Source: a bacterium | GTDB taxonomy: Bacteria; SM23-81; DAOVCL01 | Assembly (NCBI GenBank): GCA_029932675.1 | Contig: JAOZPP010000006.1 | Span: forward strand, 1 to 25,312 | Direction of reading: 5' to 3' | DNA: 25,312 bases | Part shown: positions 4,759-17,558 of the stretch, piece by piece | Layout of the letters: each line of letters starts with the position of its first letter | How positions within the stretch are numbered: position 1 is the first letter of the stretch | Made by a program: the position numbers and the translations under genes | Notes under the pieces: model-generated | Told to the model about the DNA's origin: nothing | What the model saw: only the letters and a program-made list of their open reading frames with translations | Database searches by the model: none

Positions 4759-7497
4759 TCACTTAATGAGGACAAGCTTTTTGGTGATGGTCTGGCCACC
4801 TACCCTTAGCCGGTAGAAGTAGATACCTGAGGGGAAGAAGTTAGCCTGCCACCTCACCCTCTTCTCCCCTGCCCTCTGATAGCCATTAACTAAGCTTGTC
4901 ACCTTCTCCCCTAAGATGTTATAGATAGTCAGTTCCACATTCCCGGATTGGGGAAGGTCGTATCTGATTATCGTAGTGGGATTGAAGGGGTTGGGGTAGT
5001 TCTGATAGAGAACACACTCCCGGGGAAGGGATACCTCCTTCCCTCCCTTGGAAACTCCAGTAAATATATCGGCATAGTTGCCCGTGCGGCAGGGGTTGCC
5101 CCTGAACATACTCCAATATCTCCCTGGAGAGGACTTAGCTTTGTAATCGATGACCTGCACCCCCAGGCTATAGCCAAAGGCTATCTCCAGGTCTCCATCC
5201 CCATCCAGGTCGGCAACCGCCGGAGAAGAGGGACCTGTACCCCCTGCGGGCATAGGGAAATGGGGGAGTGGCTGCCCATTTAGGCTATAGGCATAGAGAT
5301 TACCATCCTTGCTTAAGGCTACTACTTCAGGTAAGCTGTCGCCATTAAGGTCTGAGAAACAGGGGGAGGATTCTATGGGATATCCCAGATCAACCGGCCA
5401 ACCAGCAACCACGGTGCTATCTTCTCTAACCAAATAGAGCAGCCCATCAGTTGCTCCAAAGGCAATAACTAAATCACCACCAAAGGAAACAAAGGAGGGT
5501 GAACCCTTTATCTCCCCCCCAGAAGTGAAGACGAGGTCAAATGTACCATCAGGGTTCAGCACATAGAGATTCTTGTCCTTACAGCTAACTACCACCTGAG
5601 GGCCACTTCCATTTAGATCGGCAATGGAGGGGGCAGAGCTTACCGTCCCCCCCAACTGAACTGGCCAGCCAGGTAAAGGCTCTCCATCTGAAGAAAGGGC
5701 ATATATCCTATTGGCGGCAGCAAAGACGATATCCTTTTGCCCATCTCGGTCTATATCGCCTACGGCAGTCCCCAAAGTAATTGCACCGCCTACATCGTAG
5801 GGAAAACTATCGTTGAAGCTTGAGCCACCGCTTTTAAGAACATAGAGCTTTTTATCGTAGCTCCCCACGATTATCTCCAAGCTCCCATCTCCATTAAGAT
5901 CGGAGAGAACTGGGGTGGCAGTGATAAAGGATCCCGTTGAGAATGGAGGGAAAAGCAACTGGCCATTGGCTCTCAAGCAGTATATCTTGTAATCCCAAGA
6001 GCCGAAGACTATATCCAGTGTATCATCCCCATCTATATCCCCCACCGCTGGAGAACCCTCGATAACCCACCCAGCCTGGAAGGGGAAACCTACCTTATCC
6101 TCCCCATCAAGGGATTTCACATAGAGCCTACCGTCAACACCGCCGAAGACAACCTCCTTCTGACCGTCTCTATCTATGTCCAGCATCAAAGGAGAAGTGT
6201 AAACACCATTTTCTAAGTCAACTGGCCAGCCTATCTGGGGCCAACCCACTTGCAGTTCAAATCCCCGGAGAGTGGCATAGGGATTATCCCCTTCCTGATT
6301 AGCTTGTAGATAAAGCTCCATAGGAATGCTCTCCACTCCCACACTTTCCGAGACGGAGATTTGAAAGGGATCGGCAGAGTTAAATGCTGAGTCATCAGCC
6401 TGAATAACTCCATAACTTCCCAGGCTGTCTAAGATGGTAACCCGAGGATCGTCACATCTTAAAGTGACGGTGACGGTATCTGCTTGACCCCAGCTTATCT
6501 CATTTCTCAAGGCCACAAGAAGGTCCCCCGTCTCCCCAGGGTTCAAGACTCCATCTCCATCGCCAAAGTTCGAATCAGAAACCGCGTAGGAGGCAAACAG
6601 CAGCTTGGGATAGGGGGGTCGAGAAGGGGTCATCCAGGCAACACCTGAGTTTATGCCGCACTCTCCCCATTTTATCTTAAACCACCCCTTCTCCCCCCAC
6701 CTCCTTCCCCAACTGTTCTTGCAGATCCAACAGGAATCCTGATCGCTCCAACCGACAATGGCTACCGCATGGCCACCTACAGGATCTCCCCAAACATGCT
6801 CATAAACGCCGCCCGTGTAATAATCAAAGTCCTCATAGACTGTAAAATCGGTGGCCAGTGGCCCCTTCGTGTAAAGCGTGGCCTTGATCTGCTCTGGCTG
6901 AGGGTAAACATTCCCCCACTCTTCGATCCCCCGGGCCCTCATCTGCCAATCAGCACAGGCCTGGTCGCAGTTGTCATCGCGGAAAACATAAGGCAGACAG
7001 GCTTCATCTGGGGTGCCGTGCAAGTTCAAGTAATTCAAAGCGGAGCTGTTTGTCCATCCGTATTCACAATCCCCTCCTCCACAGGAGAAGAGATATTGTT
7101 CGGAGAGGTCGATATTCAACTGGGGAGCATTGAAGTGCACCTTTATAGCCCCTTCAAATGCCCCCACTACGGCAAAGGCTACGCAACTTCCGCACGCTAA
7201 CTGGTCCCTAATCGGGGTTGTCCAATCGTATCCCTGGTAGTCCCTCCAGTCAAACTCAGCGGGCAAAGAATCTGTAGTAAATTCTACCTCTTCCTCCTTA
7301 TACTCTCCTTCTTCCAGTATAGCCCCCAAGAGCCTTCGCCTCGCCTCAGGAGGAAGCTTAGAGACCGATGTCTCTCCAGCGGTCCACTTTGCCCCCTTCT
7401 CCTTTATGGCCCTCTGGATTTCCTCCAGCTCCCCACCTTGGAGTGTTGGCATAAACAGGGCAAAGAATGTAATAAAAAGAATGCATCTCTTTAGCAT
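4759..7497 (-). CDS. Secreted papain-like cysteine protease with beta-propeller and sorting domain
   Basis: A 912-residue exported protein. A signal peptide (about 1-22) is followed by a short propeptide with the GAKWTAGET motif (about 36-44) and a C1A peptidase domain (about 80-295): oxyanion Gln99, nucleophile Cys105 in ACGSCVAFA, His243 in GGHAVAIVGW, Asn261 in CKNSWG. Next comes an Ig-like region (about 300-415), then about seven repeats (about 423-815) with FG-GAP/VCBS calcium motifs such as DIDGDD, DLNGDG and DLDGDGD, probably a seven-bladed propeller ending in WSMFRGNPCRTGNY. The last 80 residues are a type A sorting domain (YQNYPNPFNPTTIIRYDLP) that implies surface attachment or type IX-like secretion. 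The ATG at 7495-7497 has AAAGGGAAG upstream; a Met seven codons earlier does not. Separated by 80 nt from the MBL gene; it may be read from that operon or alone. Confidence 0.93.
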   Translation of the reverse strand: MLKRCILFITFFALFMPTLQGGELEEIQRAIKEKGAKWTAGETSVSKLPPEARRRLLGAILEEGEYKEEEVEFTTDSLPAEFDWRDYQGYDWTTPIRDQLACGSCVAFAVVGAFEGAIKVHFNAPQLNIDLSEQYLFSCGGGDCEYGWTNSSALNYLNLHGTPDEACLPYVFRDDNCDQACADWQMRARGIEEWGNVYPQPEQIKATLYTKGPLATDFTVYEDFDYYTGGVYEHVWGDPVGGHAVAIVGWSDQDSCWICKNSWGRRWGEKGWFKIKWGECGINSGVAWMTPSRPPYPKLLFASYAVSDSNFGDGDGVLNPGETGDLLVALRNEISWGQADTVTVTLRCDDPRVTILDSLGSYGVIQADDSAFNSADPFQISVSESVGVESIPMELYLQANQEGDNPYATLRGFELQVGWPQIGWPVDLENGVYTSPLMLDIDRDGQKEVVFGGVDGRLYVKSLDGEDKVGFPFQAGWVIEGSPAVGDIDGDDTLDIVFGSWDYKIYCLRANGQLLFPPFSTGSFITATPVLSDLNGDGSLEIIVGSYDKKLYVLKSGGSSFNDSFPYDVGGAITLGTAVGDIDRDGQKDIVFAAANRIYALSSDGEPLPGWPVQLGGTVSSAPSIADLNGSGPQVVVSCKDKNLYVLNPDGTFDLVFTSGGEIKGSPSFVSFGGDLVIAFGATDGLLYLVREDSTVVAGWPVDLGYPIESSPCFSDLNGDSLPEVVALSKDGNLYAYSLNGQPLPHFPMPAGGTGPSSPAVADLDGDGDLEIAFGYSLGVQVIDYKAKSSPGRYWSMFRGNPCRTGNYADIFTGVSKGGKEVSLPRECVLYQNYPNPFNPTTIIRYDLPQSGNVELTIYNILGEKVTSLVNGYQRAGEKRVRWQANFFPSGIYFYRLRVGGQTITKKLVLIK

Positions 7498-7577
7498 TTT
7501 GGCTTCCCTTTCTTGCATGGGTTTTTAAGCGGAAAGATCGGGCACTTATGTTTAAGAAGTAGCTCTAATCCATTCAT

Positions 7578-8360
7578 TTAATCTCCCTCCTCTTTCCACT
7601 TTTCCAGTTCAATTATCATTCCATCCCGGGCGGCGATGACCTCCACCCCAGTCCGCTGGGAGAGATCAGCAGCCAGTTCCCAGGGTTTGGCTCTAATCAT
7701 CGTCATCCCAAAATGGGTAAGGACGGCGAGCCTGGGCTGCACCTCATTAATTATTCTTTCTGCATCTTCCAGGCAGAGATGATCGAGATCAGAGGGTTTA
7801 AGCCTGACCACATTGATGATGAGAAACTTACCTCGGTAATGGCCGATTAGCTCAGGGAAGAACTTGGTGTCTGTTATATAGGAGATAGTGAAAGAAGGAG
7901 ACCTGAAGTTTACCCCGTAGGTCTCCGCATTTCCATGGATATGCCTAATAGGGGTAGTGAACTCCACCTCCCCTACCTGGTAACTTCCTCCTTCCCTTAA
8001 GGTAACCACCTCCTCCACATAGTCCCGCACATAGCGGAGGATGACTGGATCATCCTCCAAGGCCTGGACCGGAGCAAAGATCTTACCCCTTCTCTCAAAG
8101 CCCCCTTTGGTCATTGCCTCTATCATAATATTCACATCGGAGCTATGGTCTAAGTGCCTGTGAGAGAGGATTATTCCATCTAATTTCGCTGGGTCGAGCT
8201 TCTCCCTCTTTGACCTGCATTTGACCAAAGCGCCCGGGCCAGGATCCAGATAGAGGTTTGTCCCTTCTAAGGTGAACCACATCCCGCCTGAGGCCCTAAT
8301 CTGGCTGGTGACCACAAACCTGGCCCCAGCAGTTCCTAAAAAGATTATTCGATCGCTCAT
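7578..8360 (-). CDS. MBL-fold metallo-hydrolase
   Basis: A 260-residue cytoplasmic metallo-beta-lactamase-fold hydrolase. Metal ligands are visible: His67, His69, Asp71 and His72 in LSHRHLDHSSD, His142 in RHIHGNAETYG, Asp164 in YITDTKFF and His216 in LTHFGMT. This full two-metal set resembles the RNase Z/PhnP/YycJ branch more than class B lactamases; there is no signal peptide. The substrate cannot be told from sequence; phosphodiester hydrolysis is the likeliest chemistry. The start overlaps the stop of the rodZ-like gene as ATGA, so it is probably translated by coupling as the last or near-last gene of the UbiA-dtd-maf-rodZ operon. Confidence 0.88.
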   Translation of the reverse strand: MSDRIIFLGTAGARFVVTSQIRASGGMWFTLEGTNLYLDPGPGALVKCRSKREKLDPAKLDGIILSHRHLDHSSDVNIMIEAMTKGGFERRGKIFAPVQALEDDPVILRYVRDYVEEVVTLREGGSYQVGEVEFTTPIRHIHGNAETYGVNFRSPSFTISYITDTKFFPELIGHYRGKFLIINVVRLKPSDLDHLCLEDAERIINEVQPRLAVLTHFGMTMIRAKPWELAADLSQRTGVEVIAARDGMIIELEKWKEEGD

Positions 8361-9082
8361 TGTAACAAAAGTTTCCCTACGGTCTCCCTATCGATTCTCA
8401 GGTTGTGAACCACCTTTCTGCTCGGGCCCAATTTGGGCAACCTCTTCCCATTCAAAAAGAGCACGATCCCACCAGCATTCCCTACTGTAGCGAGAAAACC
8501 TTCACCCGAATAGAAGGTCCTTCTCTGGCCTGGGTTCAATATCCCCTGCCAAAGCAACCCGGAATCTCCTTCGATGAAAACCCAGGTTGATTCTATCCCC
8601 ACCAACTCCAGCTTTAAAGTATCAGGCCTGAGGTGAGGCATTTGCGGAAAGGTATCTGGGCCAATTACGGTTAAGCCCTCTGAGCCGGAGACGGCTGAGG
8701 AGACCGCACCCTTCGTTGGAGGCGGGGTCCTAGCTTTCTCGGGGTTCCGGGGATAGAGGATTATGGCCAAGCCAAGGATGGGGAGGATAAACAACCAAAC
8801 CCAGAGCCAGCGATGGGAAGGCGAAGGCTGCTCCACTACAGGGGGGGCAACCTCCTGGGGGAGCATTTTCTTCACCTCTTGAAAGTCCAGACCTATTTGG
8901 TTACAATAGGATCTCAAAAAAATGGTGAGGTAAGGATCTTGGGGGAGCTCCTCAACCCTCCCCTCCTCTATAGCCTTCAGGTATTTGATATTTATCCTGG
9001 TCTCCGCGGCTATATCCCTCAGACTTATCCTCTGGGCCCTCCTCTCCTTCTGTAAAAAACGGCCGAGTTTCTTAAACTCCAT
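8357..9082 (-). CDS. rodZ: RodZ-like cytoskeletal or membrane helix-turn-helix protein
   Basis: A 241-residue bitopic membrane protein with the RodZ layout: an N-terminal Xre-like HTH_25 domain (about 5-70, with ISLRDIAAETRINIKYLKAIE), a proline-rich link, one membrane span (about 91-110, WLWVWLFILPILGLAIIL), a Pro/Ser-rich stretch and a C-terminal DUF4115-like beta domain (about 152-236). RodZ links MreB to the envelope during elongation; no mreB lies in this window, so the role rests on family resemblance. The ATG at 9080-9082 is preferred over a TTG two codons earlier because GGGAG lies 7 nt before it. It overlaps the end of maf by 11 nt and its own stop overlaps the MBL gene start. Confidence 0.85.
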   Translation of the reverse strand: MEFKKLGRFLQKERRAQRISLRDIAAETRINIKYLKAIEEGRVEELPQDPYLTIFLRSYCNQIGLDFQEVKKMLPQEVAPPVVEQPSPSHRWLWVWLFILPILGLAIILYPRNPEKARTPPPTKGAVSSAVSGSEGLTVIGPDTFPQMPHLRPDTLKLELVGIESTWVFIEGDSGLLWQGILNPGQRRTFYSGEGFLATVGNAGGIVLFLNGKRLPKLGPSRKVVHNLRIDRETVGKLLLQ

Positions 9083-9665
9083 AGCCAAGCTCCCGAAGAA
9101 GACCTAATAGCCTGGCGAGGGGAAGGCCAACAACATTATAGAAACACCCCTTCACCCACTCTACCAAAAGGGCCCCCTTCTTTTGTACTCCATAAGCCCC
9201 AGCCTTATCTAAGGGCTCTCCTGTCTTTACATAGTTGACGATAAACTCAGCAGAGAGGGGGCGAAACTTCACCTTGGTCACCTCATAGCCTGTGGCTATC
9301 CTCCCCCTACCCACATCGATTATGGCCAGGCCAGTATAGACCTCATGGATATTTCCACTCAACCGGGTAAGCATCTCCACCGCCTCCTGAGCGTCCCTTG
9401 GCTTTCCCATTATCTCCCCCTGAAAGAAGACTATGGTATCCGCTCCCAATACCACCCCCTCCCTCAGCTTAGAGGCAGCAGAGCGGGCTTTTCTCTCCGC
9501 AAGGGTGAGCACATAATCTCCTGGAGTAATGCCCTCCTCAGCGTTCTCCTCTACTTCCACTGCTACAGTGCGAAAGCGTATACCCACCTGTCTGAGTATC
9601 CAAGCCCGCCGCGGAGATGATGAGGCGAGGATCAACCTCCTGCCGGATAGAAGATCCCAGGCCAT
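9072..9665 (-). CDS. maf: Maf-like nucleoside triphosphate pyrophosphatase
   Basis: A 197-residue cytoplasmic house-cleaning enzyme that hydrolyses non-canonical or excess nucleoside triphosphates to monophosphate and pyrophosphate; Maf proteins are also linked to septum inhibition. Family motifs in order: LILASSSPRRAWIL at the N-terminus, LGADTIV (catalytic Asp), MGKPRD, and EPLDKAGAYGVQ near residues 150-160. Length is standard. Whether it is the dTTP/UTP type or the m7GTP type (YhdE versus YceF) is not resolved here. Its ATG follows the dtd stop after one base and its tail overlaps rodZ, so it sits in the middle of a translationally coupled operon. Confidence 0.93.
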   Translation of the reverse strand: MAWDLLSGRRLILASSSPRRAWILRQVGIRFRTVAVEVEENAEEGITPGDYVLTLAERKARSAASKLREGVVLGADTIVFFQGEIMGKPRDAQEAVEMLTRLSGNIHEVYTGLAIIDVGRGRIATGYEVTKVKFRPLSAEFIVNYVKTGEPLDKAGAYGVQKKGALLVEWVKGCFYNVVGLPLARLLGLLRELGYGV

Positions 9666-9666
9666 C

Positions 9667-10104
9667 TCAGCTTTCTAAGATCAGGGTTACTGGCCCTTGA
9701 TTCTCAATCCCCACCAACATCTTCGCCCCAAAGACACCCGTCTCCACCCTCAACCCCTTCTCCCGCAGGAGGTTGACAAACATCTCATACAGTCTGTTTG
9801 CTTCTTCTGGAGGGGAAGCTTGGGTAAAACTTGGCCTTCTCCCTCTCTTACAATCTCCATAGAGGGTAAACTGAGAGACAACTAAAACCTCACCGCCAAC
9901 ATCGGTTACCGAGAGGTTAAATTTTCCGGAATAATCCTCGAAAATCCTCAGGTTGGCCACCTTCTCCGCCAAATATTGGGCATCCCTTTCTCCATCTCCC
10001 TCCCTTACCCCTAAGAGAACCACCAACCCCTTACCAATCCTCCCCACCAGTTTCCCATCTATTTTAACTTGAGCACCTTTTACCCTTTGAAGGACGATCC
10101 TCAT
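9667..10104 (-). CDS. dtd: D-aminoacyl-tRNA deacylase
   Basis: A 145-residue cytoplasmic proofreading enzyme that removes D-amino acids (and glycine from tRNA-Ala) from mischarged tRNA. It matches the DTD family over its whole length: [18 protein letters not shown] opening, the active-site [19 protein letters not shown] block (about 75-93) and the C-terminal [10 protein letters not shown] gate. The ATG directly abuts the TAA of the UbiA-family gene (no spacer), with a strong GGGGAGGG upstream that lies inside the prenyltransferase coding end. The downstream gene maf starts after a single base. Confidence 0.96.
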
Positions 10105-10968
10105 TTACACCCTCCCCAAACAGATAGCAGCCAGGCCAAATAACATATCCAGCTTCAATAACCCATTTACCGTTGACCACTTACTTGCTTCCCTCCTCTT
10201 CCAAATGTACCGGAGGAGGAAGAGGAGAAAGCTATCCACCCCCAGACCAACGGCTAACAGATAAGGCAGGTGGTAAATATTAAGTAAAAAGGGGAGAAAA
10301 GTCAAACAGATTAAAAGGCCAAAGCTTAGGGTGACTAACCTCAGGGAAGCGATAAGGTCGTGGGCCAGCGGATAGGTCATCTTTCCTCCAACCCTGTCCC
10401 CCTCTTGATCCTCTATGTCCTTCAGCACCTCCCGGCCAAAATGGTAGAGCAAGGCAAATAAGGCAGGGATTAGGGCCCCTTTCGGCTCTCCCACCGCAAT
10501 CCCCCCGTAGAGAAAGGCAAGACCACCTAAAAGGCTCACTATTAAATTCCCTATCAATCCCTTTCTTTTCCACCAGATGGGGTAGGAAAGGAGGAGAAGG
10601 GAGGAGATGGTAGCCAGGAGGACAGCCCCCAGCCCTAAGAGAAAACTGAAGGCCCACCCAAGGAGGAAGAGACAATAGGTAAGAACCCTGGCCATCCTGA
10701 GCTTGATACCCCCAGAGGGGAGAGGGCGAAAAGGGCGATTTATCTTGTCTATCTCCAAGTCAATGAGGTCATCAAGGACATTCCCCCCACCGGCGATCAA
10801 AGAAGCAGATAGACCAGCGATTAAAACCGGCCAAAGCGGGAAAACCCCTCCCATAAAAGCTCCCACCAACACGGAGAGGAAAACTAAAAGGAAATTTGGC
10901 CACCTTAATAGCTTAAGAAAGGAGATAAGCTTTGCCAGGGCGGGCTGATCCTTAGGTGAATCGTACAT
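10105..10968 (-). CDS. UbiA-family prenyltransferase, DGGGP synthase-like
   Basis: A 287-residue integral membrane protein with about eight to nine hydrophobic spans that would transfer a polyprenyl group. Both Mg-diphosphate motifs are present: NVLDDLIDLEIDKINRP (63-79) and KDIEDQEGDR (183-192). The RPLPSG after the first motif, the YPIWWKRKGLIGNLIVSLLGG segment (residues 129-149) and HFGREVLKDIED resemble digeranylgeranylglyceryl phosphate synthases, the archaeal ether-lipid enzymes, more than UbiA, MenA or heme O synthase. Homologues are reported in FCB bacteria. The true prenyl acceptor is unknown; chlorophyll or quinone side-chain transfer is the alternative. It is the first gene of a run continuing without gaps into dtd, maf, rodZ and the MBL gene. 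The start has no clear ribosome binding site, so the N-terminus is less certain. Confidence 0.88.
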   Translation of the reverse strand: MYDSPKDQPALAKLISFLKLLRWPNFLLVFLSVLVGAFMGGVFPLWPVLIAGLSASLIAGGGNVLDDLIDLEIDKINRPFRPLPSGGIKLRMARVLTYCLFLLGWAFSFLLGLGAVLLATISSLLLLSYPIWWKRKGLIGNLIVSLLGGLAFLYGGIAVGEPKGALIPALFALLYHFGREVLKDIEDQEGDRVGGKMTYPLAHDLIASLRLVTLSFGLLICLTFLPFLLNIYHLPYLLAVGLGVDSFLLFLLRYIWKRREASKWSTVNGLLKLDMLFGLAAICLGRV

Positions 10969-11063: not shown

Positions 11064-12089
11064 TCATCTCGTTAAATACTTAACTACCTGAGCATAAACC
11101 TCTTCAACTCCAATCCCCAGCATACAATCCCAACTCCCTCGGGGGCAACTGCGCGGGCCATGGGGGCTACAAGGACGACAGGGGAGATCCTTCTCCACTA
11201 CCTCCCCCTCCCCCCAGGGGCCAAAGCCAAACTGAGGGGTAGTAGGGCCAAAGATCACTACCACCGGGGTCCCCATAGCAGAGGCCATATGCACTGGAGC
11301 CGAGTCATTGGTCACCAAAACCTTTAATTTAGTCAGAAGCCAGGCAGACTCCAGCACGGTGAGCCTACCAGCTGCTACTACAACACCTCCCCCCATCGAG
11401 GTAGAGAGCTTCTCACAGATCCTCTTCTCCCGTAATGAGCCGAAGAGGACAATCTTCTCCCCCCCCCTCCTAACCAGCCTCCCCAACTCCGCGAACTTCT
11501 CCACAGGCCACCTTTTGGTGGGCCAGAAGGCACCAGGGGCAAACCCCACCAACCCATCCCCCCGGGAGACCCCTGCCCCATTGAGGAAATCTTCAACCCT
11601 GCCTTTTTCCTCATTGCCAGGGAAGAGTTCTGGGGGAAGAGGAGGAGGGGCTATTCCCAAAGGGGAGAGGAGACTTAGGTTTCTTTCCACCTCATGAATC
11701 CCCCACTGGTAGCCGACCCTCTTTGTGAAGAGGAAAAACCCCGCACTACGATTAAATCCTATCCTCTCCTTGATCTCTGCACCTGTAGCCAAGAGGGCAG
11801 ATCTCAGGGAGCGGTGAGGGATAAGGGCCAGATCAAACCCCATCTCCCCTAACTCCTTCTCCATCCGCAAAAATCCCTTAATCCCCCTATCCTTCCCTCT
11901 CTTGTCATAGGTGATTACTTGAGCAAGGTTTGGGTTGTGGGCTAAGGCCTCAGCCACAGAAGGGATGGAGAGGAAAAACAGCTCAGCTTCGGGGAAGGAC
12001 TCTTTAGTTGCCCTGATCAGAGGAGTGGAGAGGATCAGATCCCCCAGGAAGCCAGTTTGAACTATCAAAACCCTCTTAATAGGGGTCAA
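11064..12089 (-). CDS. waaF: ADP-heptose:LPS heptosyltransferase, GT9 (WaaF-like)
   Basis: A 341-residue GT-B enzyme that adds heptose (or a related sugar) to the LPS inner core on the cytoplasmic face. It opens with IKRVLIVQTGFLGDLILSTP, the GT9 acceptor-side signature, and has GFAPGAFWPTKRWP (about 182-195), LFGSLREK and the donor-site NDSAPVHMASAMGTPVVVIF (261-280) followed by GPT. A cysteine cluster at 304-322 (CRPCSPHGPRSCPRGSWDC) matches the C-terminal feature of WaaF and relatives. The start is a TTG at 12087-12089 that overlaps the acyltransferase stop by 14 nt; GGAAGAG lies 5 nt upstream. It is the last gene of the five-gene operon. The precise acceptor (HepI versus HepII) is not resolved. 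Confidence 0.9.
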   Translation of the reverse strand: MTPIKRVLIVQTGFLGDLILSTPLIRATKESFPEAELFFLSIPSVAEALAHNPNLAQVITYDKRGKDRGIKGFLRMEKELGEMGFDLALIPHRSLRSALLATGAEIKERIGFNRSAGFFLFTKRVGYQWGIHEVERNLSLLSPLGIAPPPLPPELFPGNEEKGRVEDFLNGAGVSRGDGLVGFAPGAFWPTKRWPVEKFAELGRLVRRGGEKIVLFGSLREKRICEKLSTSMGGGVVVAAGRLTVLESAWLLTKLKVLVTNDSAPVHMASAMGTPVVVIFGPTTPQFGFGPWGEGEVVEKDLPCRPCSPHGPRSCPRGSWDCMLGIGVEEVYAQVVKYLTR

Positions 12090-12936
12090 TTGTGCTCTTC
12101 CACCTCTTATGGGGCCAAAACCAGTGGTCGGGATAGTTTCTGATGTATCCCTCTAAGGTTTTGGCATAAACCTGAGTTCTCTCCTTTTTCCCTCCAGAAG
12201 GAAGGGGACGGGTAATAATTATCCTCTCTCCCTCCCCTTCTCGCACAATAAAGGCCATAACTATAGGGGAACCGGTCTTCTCGGCAAGTAAGGCCGGACC
12301 TGAACTGAAGGAAGCGGATTGGGAGAAGAAGCTGACCTTCAAACCATCCCCCCCTGCATCCTGGTCGGCCAGAATACCCACTAACCTGTTTCTTCTCAAA
12401 GCCTTCACCACCTTCCAACTCCCCCCTTTTGCCTTGATTACTCTCATCCCAGACCTTACCCGATACTCGTTGACCAACCTATCAACTAACCTGTTGTGCT
12501 GCTCTTTAGCTACTGCATCTATAGGATAACCCTTCTGGACCAGAGCGGACATCAGAAGCTCCCAACTGCCGAAGTGGCCACTCAAGATTATCCCCCCCTT
12601 CCCTCCCTGCAAAGCTTGATTTAGGTTGTTCAGCCCGGCAAACTCAACCCTGTTCTGAAAATTAGAATGAGGCAATTTTAGGAGGTCAAAAAAAGTGCGG
12701 CCCAAGGCCTGATAGTTTCTCCTCCCCAGGGAAATAAGCTCTTCTTTTCCCATTTGGGGGAAGGCTAATCGGAGATTGATCAGGGTAACCCTTCTCCGAA
12801 GACCAAAGAGGTCAAAAGCAGTCCTCCCGAGGAGTTCTCCTAATCGGTGGCAACTCTCCCAGGAGAGAACCCGACTCACCCCAATAACCAGCCTCAAGAG
12901 GAGGTATTCAAGGAGATAACGGATTCCCCTTATCAT
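12076..12936 (-). CDS. lpxL: Lipid A biosynthesis acyltransferase, LpxL/HtrB family
   Basis: A 286-residue inner-membrane-associated lysophospholipid-type acyltransferase expected to add a secondary acyl chain to lipid A. An N-terminal hydrophobic segment (about 6-24) anchors it. The catalytic HX4E motif is seen as GHFGSWE (His121, Glu126) and the later LVGILADQDAG and FFSQSASFSSGPALLAEKTG segments fit the LABLAT group. Length is slightly shorter than E. coli LpxL (306). Its start overlaps the upstream protease gene by 29 nt and no clear ribosome binding site is visible, so it probably depends on coupling. Ornithine-lipid or mannoside acyltransferases share the fold, but the heptosyltransferase next door favours lipid A. 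Confidence 0.9.
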   Translation of the reverse strand: MIRGIRYLLEYLLLRLVIGVSRVLSWESCHRLGELLGRTAFDLFGLRRRVTLINLRLAFPQMGKEELISLGRRNYQALGRTFFDLLKLPHSNFQNRVEFAGLNNLNQALQGGKGGIILSGHFGSWELLMSALVQKGYPIDAVAKEQHNRLVDRLVNEYRVRSGMRVIKAKGGSWKVVKALRRNRLVGILADQDAGGDGLKVSFFSQSASFSSGPALLAEKTGSPIVMAFIVREGEGERIIITRPLPSGGKKERTQVYAKTLEGYIRNYPDHWFWPHKRWKSTIDPY

Positions 12937-13870
12937 CTGATGGAGGGGAGAAGGTCTCTTCCCGTTTCCATTTATTTAGAATATCCCTCTGCTTCCATCT
13001 TTTAAGGAAGAAAACTATAATGAAGAGAACAGTTAACCCCAACCAGATAAGTGAGGTATCAGCAAAAAGGGCCAGCCAATTATATCTTCCCTTCACCCAA
13101 TGAAGCCATCTGTTTTCGCAATCCCTCAAGCCTAAGCCCGTGGCTCTCCATAATGCCCCATTCATTGAATGCCCTTCCTTTAACCCTTTGATTATCCTGG
13201 GTATAGTCTGAGGGCCAAAGCTTTTTTCCAACCAGAGCACTGCAGAGAAGCTCTCTGCATAGGCAAGGTCGGCTTTCTCTCTCCAGAATGTGTTTACCCG
13301 ATCGATCTCCCTCAAAGGGAGGAGGGAACCGGTGAGCCTTGCCTTAACAAGGGTAAAATCTAATCCGATCCTCCATTGTTGAGATTGGCTCATTGCCAAG
13401 CCTTCATCAAACCAACGGGGGATATGGACATCAGAGAGGTTCCCGTGAAGGAGAACGTGGGTTAGCTCATGGGTGACCACCTCTTCCAAATCCCTCCTCC
13501 CCTTAGTAGTCTCTAAATCTCTGAGGATTATAGCCCCCTTGGAGGGAAGGGCACAGGCCAAACCCCAATCAGGGAAAGCTGTCCCCACAAGCTCCTCGAA
13601 CCGGGCTCGATCTGGGGCAAGATATACACTCAGGGTTCCGGTAAGCCCTACCCCTAACCCACTGGAGATTGAGGGATAGTTCTCTCGGATGATCTCCTCC
13701 ACCTCCGTGGATGGCGGAATAACCTTGAGGGTAAAGGGGAGCTCTCCCCGCCCTCTTGAAACCCAAAGGAGAAACAAGAGAAGTAGAAAACCGAGAGGAT
13801 ACAGTTTTCCTCTCATGGTGTGAAGTGATTTTCTCTTCAAACTCTTTTCCAAAGAAGAGTGGCTACTCAT
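12908..13870 (-). CDS. Membrane-anchored gluzincin metalloprotease, peptidase MA-like
   Basis: A 320-residue protein with an N-terminal hydrophobic segment (about 24-38, signal peptide or anchor), an extracytoplasmic domain and a C-terminal membrane span (about 273-290) followed by a basic tail. The zinc site is explicit: VVTHELTHVLLHG with His134, Glu135 and His138, and the third ligand Glu156 in WFDEGLAM, the arrangement of the peptidase MA family. It is therefore probably an active protease on the periplasmic side of the inner membrane. The ATG at 13868-13870 overlaps the HEAT-repeat stop by 8 nt and is preferred for that reason; a Met 18 codons later also precedes the hydrophobic stretch. 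The substrate is unknown; the two exported repeat proteins encoded just upstream are natural candidates. Confidence 0.82.
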   Translation of the reverse strand: MSSHSSLEKSLKRKSLHTMRGKLYPLGFLLLLFLLWVSRGRGELPFTLKVIPPSTEVEEIIRENYPSISSGLGVGLTGTLSVYLAPDRARFEELVGTAFPDWGLACALPSKGAIILRDLETTKGRRDLEEVVTHELTHVLLHGNLSDVHIPRWFDEGLAMSQSQQWRIGLDFTLVKARLTGSLLPLREIDRVNTFWREKADLAYAESFSAVLWLEKSFGPQTIPRIIKGLKEGHSMNGALWRATGLGLRDCENRWLHWVKGRYNWLALFADTSLIWLGLTVLFIIVFFLKRWKQRDILNKWKREETFSPPSDDKGNPLSP

Positions 13871-14795
13871 CACCTTGGCTGGCCTTACCCTGCTCCAACC
13901 TTTGCAGCCCTTCCCCAATCTTACGGAGGACAAAGGGATGTTTTTCCCGCCTCTTAGCCAGGCTCAGGGCCTCTTTAGCCTCTCCCCCCCCGATCTCCCC
14001 AATCGCTTGGGCAACAAAGCCCCTGATAGCCCAATCCTCATTCTGAAGCAGGGATATCAGGGGGTTAAGGGCTCTCTTATCCCCTAATTCCCCCAAGACC
14101 TCAATTGCGTAATATCCTCTCCTTCCCAGCGGTTCCTCGAGAATAGCCAGAAGGGAGTCGATCACGGCCTCTCCCAGCTTGCTCAGGGCCCGGGCCGATG
14201 AATACCTTACCGCATAGAAAGGATCGGATAAACCTTTGAGAAGCGGAGTTGTTGCTCGGGGATCATTTAGTTCCCCCAAACTCACCGCCGCAGATTTGCG
14301 CACCAGATCTACTGAATCCCCAAGGGCGGAGATTAACCAAGGGGTTGCTTCTCTCGCCCCAATCCTTCCCAGGGCGAAGGCCACCACAGACCTTACCCTC
14401 CAGTCGGGATAGGAGGAAAACTCAAGGAGGGAAGGAAGAGCCCTCTTGTCGCCGATAAGCCCCAGGATCCTAATGCCTAACCGGAGAGTATAGGGATCAT
14501 CCGTCTTTAGGGCCTCGATTAATGGTTCCACTGCCGGACCCTTGATTCGTCTGAGAACCCTCTCCAAGGTATGTCTCTCCCGAGCATTCCTTGTCCCTAA
14601 CTTGCCCACTAAGTAGGGGACAGCCTCTCCCCCCCGGCGGACTAACTCTTCCTCTGCCGGCTTTCTTAGGGATGCGTATTGAAGCTCTGCCGAGGAGGCC
14701 TCCCGGAAGAGCTCCTCAACTGATTTAGCCTCTGCTTGGAGGCTGGAAGGGAGAATGAGGGAGAGGAAGCCAAACAAAATCATCCTCTTCTTCAT
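13863..14795 (-). CDS. Exported HEAT-repeat protein
   Basis: A 310-residue protein with a signal peptide (about 1-21, MKKRMILFGFLSLILPSSLQ) and a solenoid of about seven to eight HEAT/PBS-lyase-like repeats (about 55-300) with the usual GDKRALPSLLEF, VRSVVAFALGRIGAREATPW and VRKSAAVSLGELNDPRATTP units. No catalytic residues are visible, so it is likely a periplasmic scaffold or binding protein. It starts at an ATG overlapping the stop of the GGND-repeat gene (ATGA), with an AAGGAGG ribosome binding site inside the end of that gene. Repeats of this kind are easily gained and lost, so orthologues may differ in length. Confidence 0.85.
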   Translation of the reverse strand: MKKRMILFGFLSLILPSSLQAEAKSVEELFREASSAELQYASLRKPAEEELVRRGGEAVPYLVGKLGTRNARERHTLERVLRRIKGPAVEPLIEALKTDDPYTLRLGIRILGLIGDKRALPSLLEFSSYPDWRVRSVVAFALGRIGAREATPWLISALGDSVDLVRKSAAVSLGELNDPRATTPLLKGLSDPFYAVRYSSARALSKLGEAVIDSLLAILEEPLGRRGYYAIEVLGELGDKRALNPLISLLQNEDWAIRGFVAQAIGEIGGGEAKEALSLAKRREKHPFVLRKIGEGLQRLEQGKASQGDE

Positions 14796-16666
14796 CTCGC
14801 CTCCTTGATGGGCCTTTCCAGATCTGCCCCTACCCCATACTTTGATTTGACCCAGTAAGAACGATTCTCATATCCGGCCGCATAGCTATCTTTCCCAGAG
14901 AGGTCGATAAAGACACCAATCGAACCATAGTCCCTTCTGTAATCACCATAGCCATTGGTGTTAGCTTGCTTACGCACTTCATAATTGTCACTGCCCCCAA
15001 AGTCAAAGAGGATACCAATGCCATTGGCATTTCCCGCCCCCTGGGAGAGGTCACCTGTGGCATAATTGTCATCCCCCCTCCAGTCCTCCAAGAGGCCAAA
15101 GCTCAGATCATGGCCACATCCTTGGGAGACTCCGTGGGAGATATAGTTATCATCGCCCTCCTTGTCCAGTAGAGCAGCCAAGGTAAGGTGAGTAGCCGCC
15201 CCTTGGGCATACTGATAGGAGACATAGGTATCGTTCCCCCCTCCATCAATTAGGCCAGAAAGCGAATACCAGTAGCTTGATCCCTGTCCAAAGATATCGG
15301 AGATGTAGGTATCGTTCCCCGACAGATCTCCCAGGAGGGCAATCCCCCCTGATGCGTAAGGACGAAGGCCATAGGCAAATCCCTGGGAGAGGCTGAGGTA
15401 GTGGTCAAAATACCTCAGCCTATCAGTATACTTTCCCCCAGAATAGTAGAGATCGTTCCCTCCCCCATCGGAAAGCCAGCCAAACCCTCCTACAAAGGCA
15501 AATCCCTGGGAGAACAGGGCCGATCTATATTCGTCGTTTCCCGCATCATCCTGGAGGATCCCTACCCCAAATGCACCTGCTCCCTGCCCCGCCGTATCCG
15601 AGATGTACCTGTCGTTACCACCCCCATCCCAGAGGACCCCACAGCCGAAGAACCCTGCCCCCAGGGAGTAGTTGTCGGCGATATAGGTATCATCCCCTCC
15701 CCTATCCCAAAGCAACCCCACCCCAAAGAGACCACTACCATAGTTTCCTTTATCTCCAAGATAGATGTCATCCCCATCAAGGTCAATGATGACCATAGTC
15801 CGGCCATCCTGTGGCAGGCTGATATGATCGTATCGGTCATCTCCTCCCAGATCTATGATTATCGCTACATCTTGTTGATTATAGTAGTTGGGCCCTACTC
15901 CACCTACCATAACCCTACCCCACGGGGTGAGAAGATCAATGAGTACCCTTTGCCCAAGCTCAATTTGCCCCTCGAGGGAATCTTGGGCCAATTCAAGCGC
16001 CCTGGTGAGGACGACGCCAGCAGAGATTATCTTACCCCTCTCTATTTGCTCGGCCAGTTCCAGGACCCTCTTGTCCCTCTTCTCCCCCTCTTTTCTCTCC
16101 TTCTCCGTTAACTCAATGGGCTTCTGGGGATCAAACGTCCCTTCCTTGAGCACCTCTGGCCCCTGCTTAAGGAGAAACTCCATCTCCTCTTCGTTGAGGG
16201 AGGAGAAGGCTTCCTCCATCAACTGATTGGCTTTTTTTACTCCTCCCAACAGCCATTTTATCGAGGTCTGCAGTCCCTGGGGGAGGGGGAAATGACCTTC
16301 CCCTTGCAGGAGAGGCCCCAATCCACTGGTATCAACCTGGGGATCTACTGGGCTGAGGTCCAAACCCCTGCCCGCTTTTAGTAGCCTTTGGCTGAGATTT
16401 ACACTGTTTAATTCGGTGTTTAAGGAATCAAGCCAGGGGACAACTTTCAAGGGGTGGTTGAGGAGGTGATTTACCGCTCCCAACCTAAAGGAGTCTGGCT
16501 CCAGGTAGTCGTTCCTCAGGTAGATGTCCTCCGGGGTTAGCTTGATACACTTTAAGGCCTCCCTTAAACCCAAGCGAAAGTTCTCCTCTATCTCCCCGGC
16601 TTGGCCCCCAGGGGGAAGGACCAGCCAAAGGAGAAGGGGGAGAACGGCGAATCTTTTCACCAACAA
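14792..16666 (-). CDS. Exported protein with about twelve GGND repeats, unrecognised family
   Basis: A 624-residue exported protein I cannot place in a named family. It has a signal peptide (about 1-23), a mostly helical N-terminal region (about 25-260, with a charged stretch near 181-205), then about twelve repeats of 24-28 residues (about 266-605) with consensus GxGxLxDxGGNDxYxSxxxSQGxG; one unit near 410-430 has an insertion. Examples are LLWDGGGNDRYISDTAGQG and LLGDLSGNDTYISDIFGQG. The Asp/Asn pairs at each turn could bind calcium, and the regular period suggests a beta-helix or beta-roll, but it does not fit the RTX nonapeptide GGxGxDxux. The start is taken as TTG 16664-16666 because GGAGG lies 7 nt upstream; TTG and GTG codons follow immediately. 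It is the first gene of the five-gene operon. Confidence 0.85.
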   Translation of the reverse strand: MLVKRFAVLPLLLWLVLPPGGQAGEIEENFRLGLREALKCIKLTPEDIYLRNDYLEPDSFRLGAVNHLLNHPLKVVPWLDSLNTELNSVNLSQRLLKAGRGLDLSPVDPQVDTSGLGPLLQGEGHFPLPQGLQTSIKWLLGGVKKANQLMEEAFSSLNEEEMEFLLKQGPEVLKEGTFDPQKPIELTEKERKEGEKRDKRVLELAEQIERGKIISAGVVLTRALELAQDSLEGQIELGQRVLIDLLTPWGRVMVGGVGPNYYNQQDVAIIIDLGGDDRYDHISLPQDGRTMVIIDLDGDDIYLGDKGNYGSGLFGVGLLWDRGGDDTYIADNYSLGAGFFGCGVLWDGGGNDRYISDTAGQGAGAFGVGILQDDAGNDEYRSALFSQGFAFVGGFGWLSDGGGNDLYYSGGKYTDRLRYFDHYLSLSQGFAYGLRPYASGGIALLGDLSGNDTYISDIFGQGSSYWYSLSGLIDGGGNDTYVSYQYAQGAATHLTLAALLDKEGDDNYISHGVSQGCGHDLSFGLLEDWRGDDNYATGDLSQGAGNANGIGILFDFGGSDNYEVRKQANTNGYGDYRRDYGSIGVFIDLSGKDSYAAGYENRSYWVKSKYGVGADLERPIKEAR

Positions 16667-16769
16667 GTCGAGCCCTCCTTACTTTATCTGATTTTGTTTT
16701 TATAATAGAAATCCCCAGCCCTTTGAGAAATATTATCCCCCCTTTAATATTTTCCGTTACATAAACCTG

Positions 16770-16785
16770 CTATTAAAAATAATAG
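16770..16785. promoter_or_regulatory. Palindrome covering the -10 box, possible operator
   Basis: CTATTA AAAA TAATAG is a perfect 6-bp inverted repeat that covers the -10 element of the promoter for the five-gene operon. Position and symmetry fit a dimeric repressor site, though an A/T-rich palindrome can arise by chance. Confidence 0.35.
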
Positions 16786-16804
16786 AAGGGGGCAAAGATG
16801 TCAA
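16776..16804 (-). promoter_or_regulatory. Promoter of the five-gene envelope operon
   Basis: On the minus strand a perfect TTGACA (16804 down to 16799) is followed by 17 nt and TATTTT (16781 down to 16776). Transcription would start near 16769, giving a leader of about 100 nt before the TTG at 16666. It lies in the gap after the methyltransferase stop at 16827, so the operon has its own promoter. Confidence 0.65.
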
Positions 16805-16826: not shown

Positions 16827-17360
16827 TTACTTCATCACTCTCCTGAGGAAGTTCCACCGGGGGACCCTCCTCATATAGTTCTGATATCGACCTCCAAACT
16901 TCCTTATGTTGTATTCGTCCTCCTCTTTGGCAGCCATCCAAAAGCAGAAACCAGCCAGTATCCCCAATACAGCCGTGGGAACAGTTTGGATGACCAAAGT
17001 CACCCCTATAGCCCATAGAGCAAGGCTTAAATAGAGGGGATGGCGAACGATATTATATACACCGTTTTCGATCATCACAGTAGTTTGTTCCCATCCCGTT
17101 GGTGGTTTACCTCTTTTCTTTAGGTTGAGAAAACTGGCGCCAAGGAAGAAGGCCGCCGGAAGAAAGAGTGCAAAGCCGAGGACCTTCAGTGGGAAGATCC
17201 CTATCTCCCCCCAGGAAGAGTTCAGAAGAAAAGAGGTAAAATATAGTCCCAATCCACAGGCCACATAGATTTCATAAATGATATGCTCACGGACGACAGG
17301 GATAAGCCATTTTAGGATGATAGCAATCCAAATTCCAGCAAGTATGATGTAATTCCACAT
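16827..17360 (-). CDS. Membrane methyltransferase of the ICMT/PEMT family
   Basis: A 177-residue integral membrane protein with about four hydrophobic spans and the C-terminal S-adenosylmethionine and substrate motifs of the isoprenylcysteine carboxyl methyltransferase/phospholipid methyltransferase group: GVYNIVRHPLY (100-110) and EEDEYNIRKFGGRYQNYMRRVPRW (146-169 region). In bacteria such proteins methylate lipids or other small membrane substrates; the real substrate is unknown. The ATG at 17358-17360 has an excellent TTGGAGGTG upstream; the frame runs on to 17453 through what is more likely leader. It lies about 200 nt after the response regulator gene and is preceded by a long hairpin (17405-17433), so it may be regulated separately. 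Confidence 0.85.
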   Translation of the reverse strand: MWNYIILAGIWIAIILKWLIPVVREHIIYEIYVACGLGLYFTSFLLNSSWGEIGIFPLKVLGFALFLPAAFFLGASFLNLKKRGKPPTGWEQTTVMIENGVYNIVRHPLYLSLALWAIGVTLVIQTVPTAVLGILAGFCFWMAAKEEDEYNIRKFGGRYQNYMRRVPRWNFLRRVMK

Positions 17361-17404
17361 TTTGCACCTCCAACCGATTCGTACCGCCACTGGGGAATTA
17401 GAAA

Positions 17405-17433
17405 CCTCCCTTGGGTTCCAAACCCTTGGGAGG
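17405..17433. promoter_or_regulatory. Long imperfect hairpin with doubled CCCTTGGG, upstream of the methyltransferase gene
   Basis: Arms CCTCCC+TT+GGGTT (17405-17417) and AACCC+TT+GGGAGG (17421-17433) pair over 11 bp with a symmetric TT/TT internal loop and a 3-nt loop. CCCTTGGG occurs twice, starting 15 nt apart (17408 and 17423). It ends 45 nt before the start codon, so it is either a leader hairpin or a two-site operator. Confidence 0.45.
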
Positions 17434-17558
17434 TGCTCATATCCCCATCTCATCGGTTATATAGACTGGACACTTCCTCTCCGTACACAGGATTTTAGTG
17501 GGGCATAAAGGGGGCAGCCGAATAGCTTCCTCTTAAGGGGATTCAGAATGCCCTGAGA

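Follow-up and report, generated by a model that had tools for sequence, protein, structure and literature searches.

Do five overlapping genes, which place two lipid A/LPS-type enzymes behind three exported or membrane proteins, serve a single process in the cell envelope? The original prediction held that they do. The genes lie on the minus strand of a 25,312-nt stretch of contig JAOZPP010000006.1 (hereafter the window), and we refer to the first, a protein with GGND repeats, as GGND. The features are listed below in order of transcription; units A and B are the two groups of genes for which we argue in what follows.

16776-16804, minus strand: promoter-like site TTGACA-17-TATTTT, 5' of the GGND gene (10/12 match)
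14792-16666, minus strand: GGND-repeat exported protein, 624 aa; unit A, part 1 (ORF list and sequence)
13863-14795, minus strand: HEAT-repeat protein, 310 aa; unit A, part 2 (PF13646, E 7e-57)
12908-13870, minus strand: Peptidase_MA metallopeptidase, start uncertain and maybe later; unit B, part 1 (PF13485, E 1e-14)
12076-12936, minus strand: LpxL-family late acyltransferase; unit B, part 2 (PF03279, E 4e-46)
11064-12089, minus strand: GT9 heptosyltransferase-like protein; unit B, part 3 (PF01075, E 8e-37)
7578-10968, minus strand: UbiA, Dtd, Maf, RodZ-like, and MBL genes, the same-strand continuation past GT9

The open reading frames and the sequence bear out the five overlapping genes in the predicted order, as well as the size of each overlap: 4 nt for GGND/HEAT, 8 nt for HEAT/peptidase, 29 nt for peptidase/LpxL, and 14 nt for LpxL/GT9. 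The run does not end at GT9 as had been supposed, and five more same-strand genes (UbiA, Dtd, Maf, RodZ-like, and MBL) follow after a 95-nt gap, with gaps or overlaps of 0 to 1 nt among themselves. The proposed promoter is present at 16804-16776 and is plausible but unproven, sharing the top score among the 19 promoter-like hits found over 10.3 kb, against 7.2 expected from shuffling; no such site was recognized by eye upstream of the GGND gene of the sister species. Two further observations concern other parts of the window. A tRNA-Arg(TCT) at 17363-17436 lies inside the first-ATG version of an open reading frame for an ICMT/PEMT-like methyltransferase, so that this gene most likely starts at 17360, right after the tRNA, and the protein encoded at 4759-7518 combines a papain-family protease with FG-GAP/beta-propeller repeats and a T9SS sorting domain.

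Our sample comprises four species of the phylum of the window genome and only two of its family. The sister species, deposited as Candidatus Zixiibacteriota CSMAG_1030, shares 74 to 79% protein identity with the window over the joined arrangement (78% for GGND), and its contig (L003) carries GGND, HEAT, peptidase, LpxL, GT9, UbiA, Dtd, and Maf in that order. Tight overlap proved to be a conserved trait at some junctions only: the 4-, 29-, and 14-nt overlaps recur in the sister species, as does the TTG start of GT9, but the 8-nt overlap does not. The latter rests on an ATG in the window that aligns with CCC in the sister species; the first start candidate conserved in frame between the two, a TTG, comes only after the end of HEAT. 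Between these two species, the junction of HEAT and peptidase, where unit A meets unit B, is the only one of the four that lacks a conserved overlap.

We then asked how the genes are arranged in other bacteria, using a survey that was uneven, had one genome per species, and included many loci near contig ends. A two-sequence profile matched the GGND family in 66 of 386 genomes spread widely over the domain, and GGND is present in 19 of the 20 genomes of one sampled phylum (that of G072). Outside the genus, we took 80 GGND loci from 64 genomes and 43 families and searched their six-frame translations with profiles built from hits. A HEAT gene was linked to GGND at 49 of these 80 loci, as counted with a profile that, like the one for LpxL, was seeded from the same fetched loci; at 25 of them the two are fused in one open frame, and at 24 they are adjacent on the same strand. 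GGND nearly always comes first, and the linked or fused loci span 31 families. By comparison, the 623 genes that surround the peptidase loci include neither HEAT nor GGND (Fisher 1.5e-54, with loci treated as independent). Because GGND and HEAT are often a single polypeptide elsewhere, they most likely act as one complex. Additional neighbors shared by GGND loci were too rare to use. Among individual loci, two genomes of one family have a gene of 292 to 294 aa between GGND and HEAT (L039:7785-8663 and L041:8327-9211), which in L039 is a short-chain dehydrogenase.

The peptidase gene has a different set of companions. The 386-genome survey gave 40 fetched loci, which together with same-phylum relatives made 43, and at 14 of these, from 10 families, the peptidase lies directly upstream of an LpxL-family gene (counted with the LpxL profile just described). 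GT9 follows LpxL at 7 of the 14 and lies within 5 kb at an eighth. The 1,023 genes that surround GGND contain no peptidase-LpxL-type hit (Fisher 3e-21, again with loci treated as independent). Peptidases linked to LpxL cluster on the peptidase tree: the label requires 6 changes against 13.4 when shuffled, and 0 of 500 shuffles were as low. What precedes the peptidase-LpxL pair varies freely (MnmA, response regulators, a ribosomal protein, PfkB-like and AsmA-like genes, and others), which leaves the pair itself as the conserved element. Three genomes of one family (L176, L177, and L178) have a gap of about 750 nt between LpxL and GT9, which in L177 holds a 241-aa gene with no Pfam match.

The two sets do not meet at any sampled locus outside the genus. 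No peptidase, LpxL, or GT9 gene was found within about 8 kb of GGND at any of the 80 nongenus loci, and no GGND or HEAT gene near the peptidase at any of the 43 peptidase loci. Both pairs, GGND-HEAT and peptidase-LpxL, occur in five genomes (G006, G154, G160, G284, and G299), where they occupy separate loci. Of the genomes in the phylum of G072, 15 have both GGND and the peptidase, on different contigs in every case, although in these fragmented metagenome assemblies this shows nonadjacency only where the contigs extend far enough beyond the genes. G002 and G003, of the same phylum as the window genome and its nearest relatives beyond the genus, possess peptidase-LpxL (G002 also has GT9) and gave no GGND match. 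Outside the genus, the first two genes are associated with each other and the peptidase with LpxL and GT9, never with GGND or HEAT. The outcome named in the original prediction as fatal to it, a lack of association among the first three genes, was half borne out.

We consider it probable that the five genes form a composite transcription unit of two independently conserved envelope modules, GGND-HEAT (unit A) and peptidase-LpxL-GT9 (unit B). As far as sampled, the join between A and B is a property of this genus, kept across two species. Such a lineage-specific junction implies shared expression and not one pathway. The predicted five-gene coupling consequently survives as a real and old link within each unit (49 of 80 and 14 of 43 loci), but between the units it is confined to this genus. 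One observation speaks against two modules: the A-B order and three overlaps have been kept since the split from the sister species, at 78% identity in GGND, and this kept arrangement could reflect a lineage-specific functional link.

The same conservation of order and overlaps in the sister species would also be expected if all five genes served one envelope quality-control or surface-assembly process, in which the peptidase processes or clears GGND and HEAT while LPS is remodeled. The apparent signal peptides of GGND and HEAT and the envelope topology of the peptidase fit that proposal too. We nevertheless regard it as unlikely, given that the A-B linkage is absent from the 80 GGND and 43 peptidase loci elsewhere, that the units lie apart in five genomes and their GGND and peptidase genes on different contigs in 15 more, and that of the four junctions only A/B lacks a conserved overlap. 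The neighborhood evidence as a whole runs against a module joining all five.

Could the run instead be a general envelope or housekeeping operon, in which a promoter is shared with UbiA, Dtd, Maf, RodZ-like, and MBL for expression only and even unit B lacks a shared pathway? The same-strand housekeeping genes that begin 95 nt past GT9, partly retained in the sister species, are compatible with this, as are the widely differing genes upstream of peptidase-LpxL (MnmA, response regulators, ribosomal protein, PfkB). Chance packing, however, would not give a pairing within units that survives in very different contexts and, for unit A, as fusions, and we assign this explanation little probability.

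We next describe the proteins of each module. GGND has an apparent signal peptide, a predicted helical N-terminal part of about 220 aa, and 12 repeats at residues 272-595 with the motif D-x-x-G-x-D-x-Y, spaced mostly 26 to 27 aa apart (one spacing of 23 and two longer, of 47 and 33). Across 72 homologs, exactly 12 motifs were scored in 44, and the D, G, and D positions are 85 to 100% conserved in every repeat. Certain polar residues are conserved in a repeat-specific manner, namely Q387, Q428, R435, Q461, Y465/W466, H493, and D520. The mostly fixed repeat count and these repeat-specific residues argue for a defined binding or catalytic face as opposed to a passive spacer.

The GGND domain matched no Pfam family among 20 members (fused HEAT parts aside), nor did the isolated domain at E values up to 1, and the window protein had no NCBIfam match either. 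No PDB sequence relative of the repeat region was found, the helical N-terminal part drawing nothing but coiled-coil noise, and a literature search returned no description of the GGND repeat or of HEAT/beta-solenoid pairs. AF2 models built from a two-sequence alignment (the window protein and one relative) reached a pLDDT of 34.8 at full length and 43.9 for the repeat domain; Foldseek gave only insignificant matches to the latter (best E 0.48, mostly beta-helices), and we did not use them as evidence.

The GGGNDTY turn looks, by eye, like the GGxGxDxU nonapeptide of RTX proteins, which raises the question of whether GGND could be a calcium-binding adhesin or a toxin-like protein of the RTX type. 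RTX repeats (PF00353) and the Ca2+-dependent beta-helical MpAFP (3p4g) presumably share with GGND tandem Gly/Asp-rich GND turns and export, a likeness that we draw by eye. Unlike those proteins, GGND has repeats of mostly 26 to 27 aa, not 9 or 18, usually 12 in number, with repeat-specific Q/R/H/D residues, an apparent N-terminal signal peptide, and a HEAT partner. RTX/hemolysin-type Pfam models matched neither the 20 members nor the isolated domain at an E of 1, and on these scans we rejected GGND as an RTX member; an RTX-type identity now seems very improbable. We think it probable that the GGND domain folds into a beta-solenoid, the 12 DxxGxDxY turns of which would bind metal, perhaps Ca2+, after export, and the conserved polar residues listed above may form its ligand-binding or catalytic face.

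Elsewhere, GGND domains sit behind parts other than the helical one: a PDZ domain (L070), a PQQ-type propeller (L074), a right-handed beta-helix segment (L064), or HEAT. In three genomes of one family (L099, L102, and L103), GGND directly follows a protein of about 1,070 aa with a 4-nt overlap, and in L102 this protein has a Tricorn-like/S41 protease architecture. Two candidates were set aside, the 1,414-aa open frame of L036 as a GGND fusion, whose first 780 residues have no Pfam match and may be a spurious frame, and the 778-aa GGND neighbor in L037 as a partner, which is a molybdopterin dehydrogenase.

The HEAT protein belongs to PF13646 (HEAT_2), at 190 bits against a cutoff of 27.7, and carries an apparent signal peptide. 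It shares HEAT repeats at this strong score with HEAT/PBS-lyase-like proteins (PF13646 and PF03130) and differs from them in having its own N-terminal LFxxAS motif, in being apparently exported, and in being dedicated, often by fusion, to GGND. The motif (F in 85% of 52 sequences) is not part of the generic HEAT repeats, so that the HEAT partners look like a dedicated, specific family. From these features, we infer that GGND and HEAT would be exported and work as a complex in which the HEAT solenoid docks onto GGND. More tentatively, GGND-HEAT may be a machine of the envelope that is widespread among uncultivated bacteria yet undescribed, in which a metal-dependent beta-solenoid of mostly 12 coils with a conserved polar face works as a unit with a HEAT solenoid; carried by almost all genomes in at least one phylum, it would supply a core envelope function outside annotated families.

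In unit B, the peptidase scores 55.1 bits with the Peptidase_MA profile PF13485 (cutoff, 32.4). Its predicted HELTH motif and third Glu ligand, the latter in PRWFDEGLA, held up fully: H134, E135, H138, and E156 are kept in all 45 homologs, and G157 and Y204 are likewise invariant. The HExxH and the Glu 18 residues past the second His are shared with the Peptidase MA superfamily. In contrast to that superfamily at large, the window peptidase is compact, partly LpxL linked, and equipped with a C-terminal transmembrane segment (44 of 45 homologs), after which there is usually a basic stretch with a WxxEE-like tail; elsewhere in this genome, MA matches lie in open frames of about 1,000 aa. A phmmer search found no PDB relative of the peptidase, and a literature search found no description of Peptidase MA together with lipid A. 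In Escherichia coli, the envelope metallopeptidase gene mepM lies beside the late acyltransferase gene lpxM, an arrangement like that of unit B. This is a lead only, as MepM belongs to the M23 murein endopeptidases, which are not related to Peptidase_MA.

The last two genes had been called lipid A and LPS-core enzymes, LpxL and WaaF-like. Both belong to the families concerned, but both fall below the NCBIfam equivalog cutoffs. The acyltransferase matches PF03279 at 158 bits and has the HX4E motif of LpxL/LpxM as GHFGSWE, and its best equivalog score is 140.9 bits against 248 for NF006270; we file it as LpxL family only. GT9 matches PF01075, the family of GT9 heptosyltransferases, at 127.3 bits (cutoff, 22) and narrowly misses the WaaF equivalog TIGR02195 (128.0 against 134.6 bits), which makes it heptosyltransferase-like and at most a candidate WaaF. 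A signal-peptide heuristic was dropped, GT9 proteins having passed it in 12 of 13 cases. Another LpxL paralog of the genome lies in a pyrG-kdsA-kdsC-kdsD-lpxL-lptC-lptB-rpoN run, indicating that Kdo and Lpt genes are present and that the window copy is a second acyltransferase. Within this Kdo/Lpt operon, pyrG and kdsA are separated by a type VII toxin-antitoxin pair, HepT/MntA (L140:11368-12220, on G000:C108); the operon of the sister species (L142) has no open reading frame of at least 80 aa at that place.

For unit B, we infer that the peptidase may be a tail-anchored periplasmic gluzincin, coexpressed with the late acyltransferase and GT9. The unit would act in the maturation of a lipid A/LPS-type glycolipid, where the peptidase might trim or control an inner-membrane or periplasmic partner.

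These results replace a functional guess about five genes with two testable units. Unit A is a widely conserved, Pfam-dark pair with natural fusions, and it offers a good target for envelope function in lineages that are known chiefly through metagenomes. In unit B, a membrane-anchored metallopeptidase is recurrently linked, at the genetic level, to late acylation of the lipid A type, and this peptidase is a candidate regulatory protease for LPS assembly.
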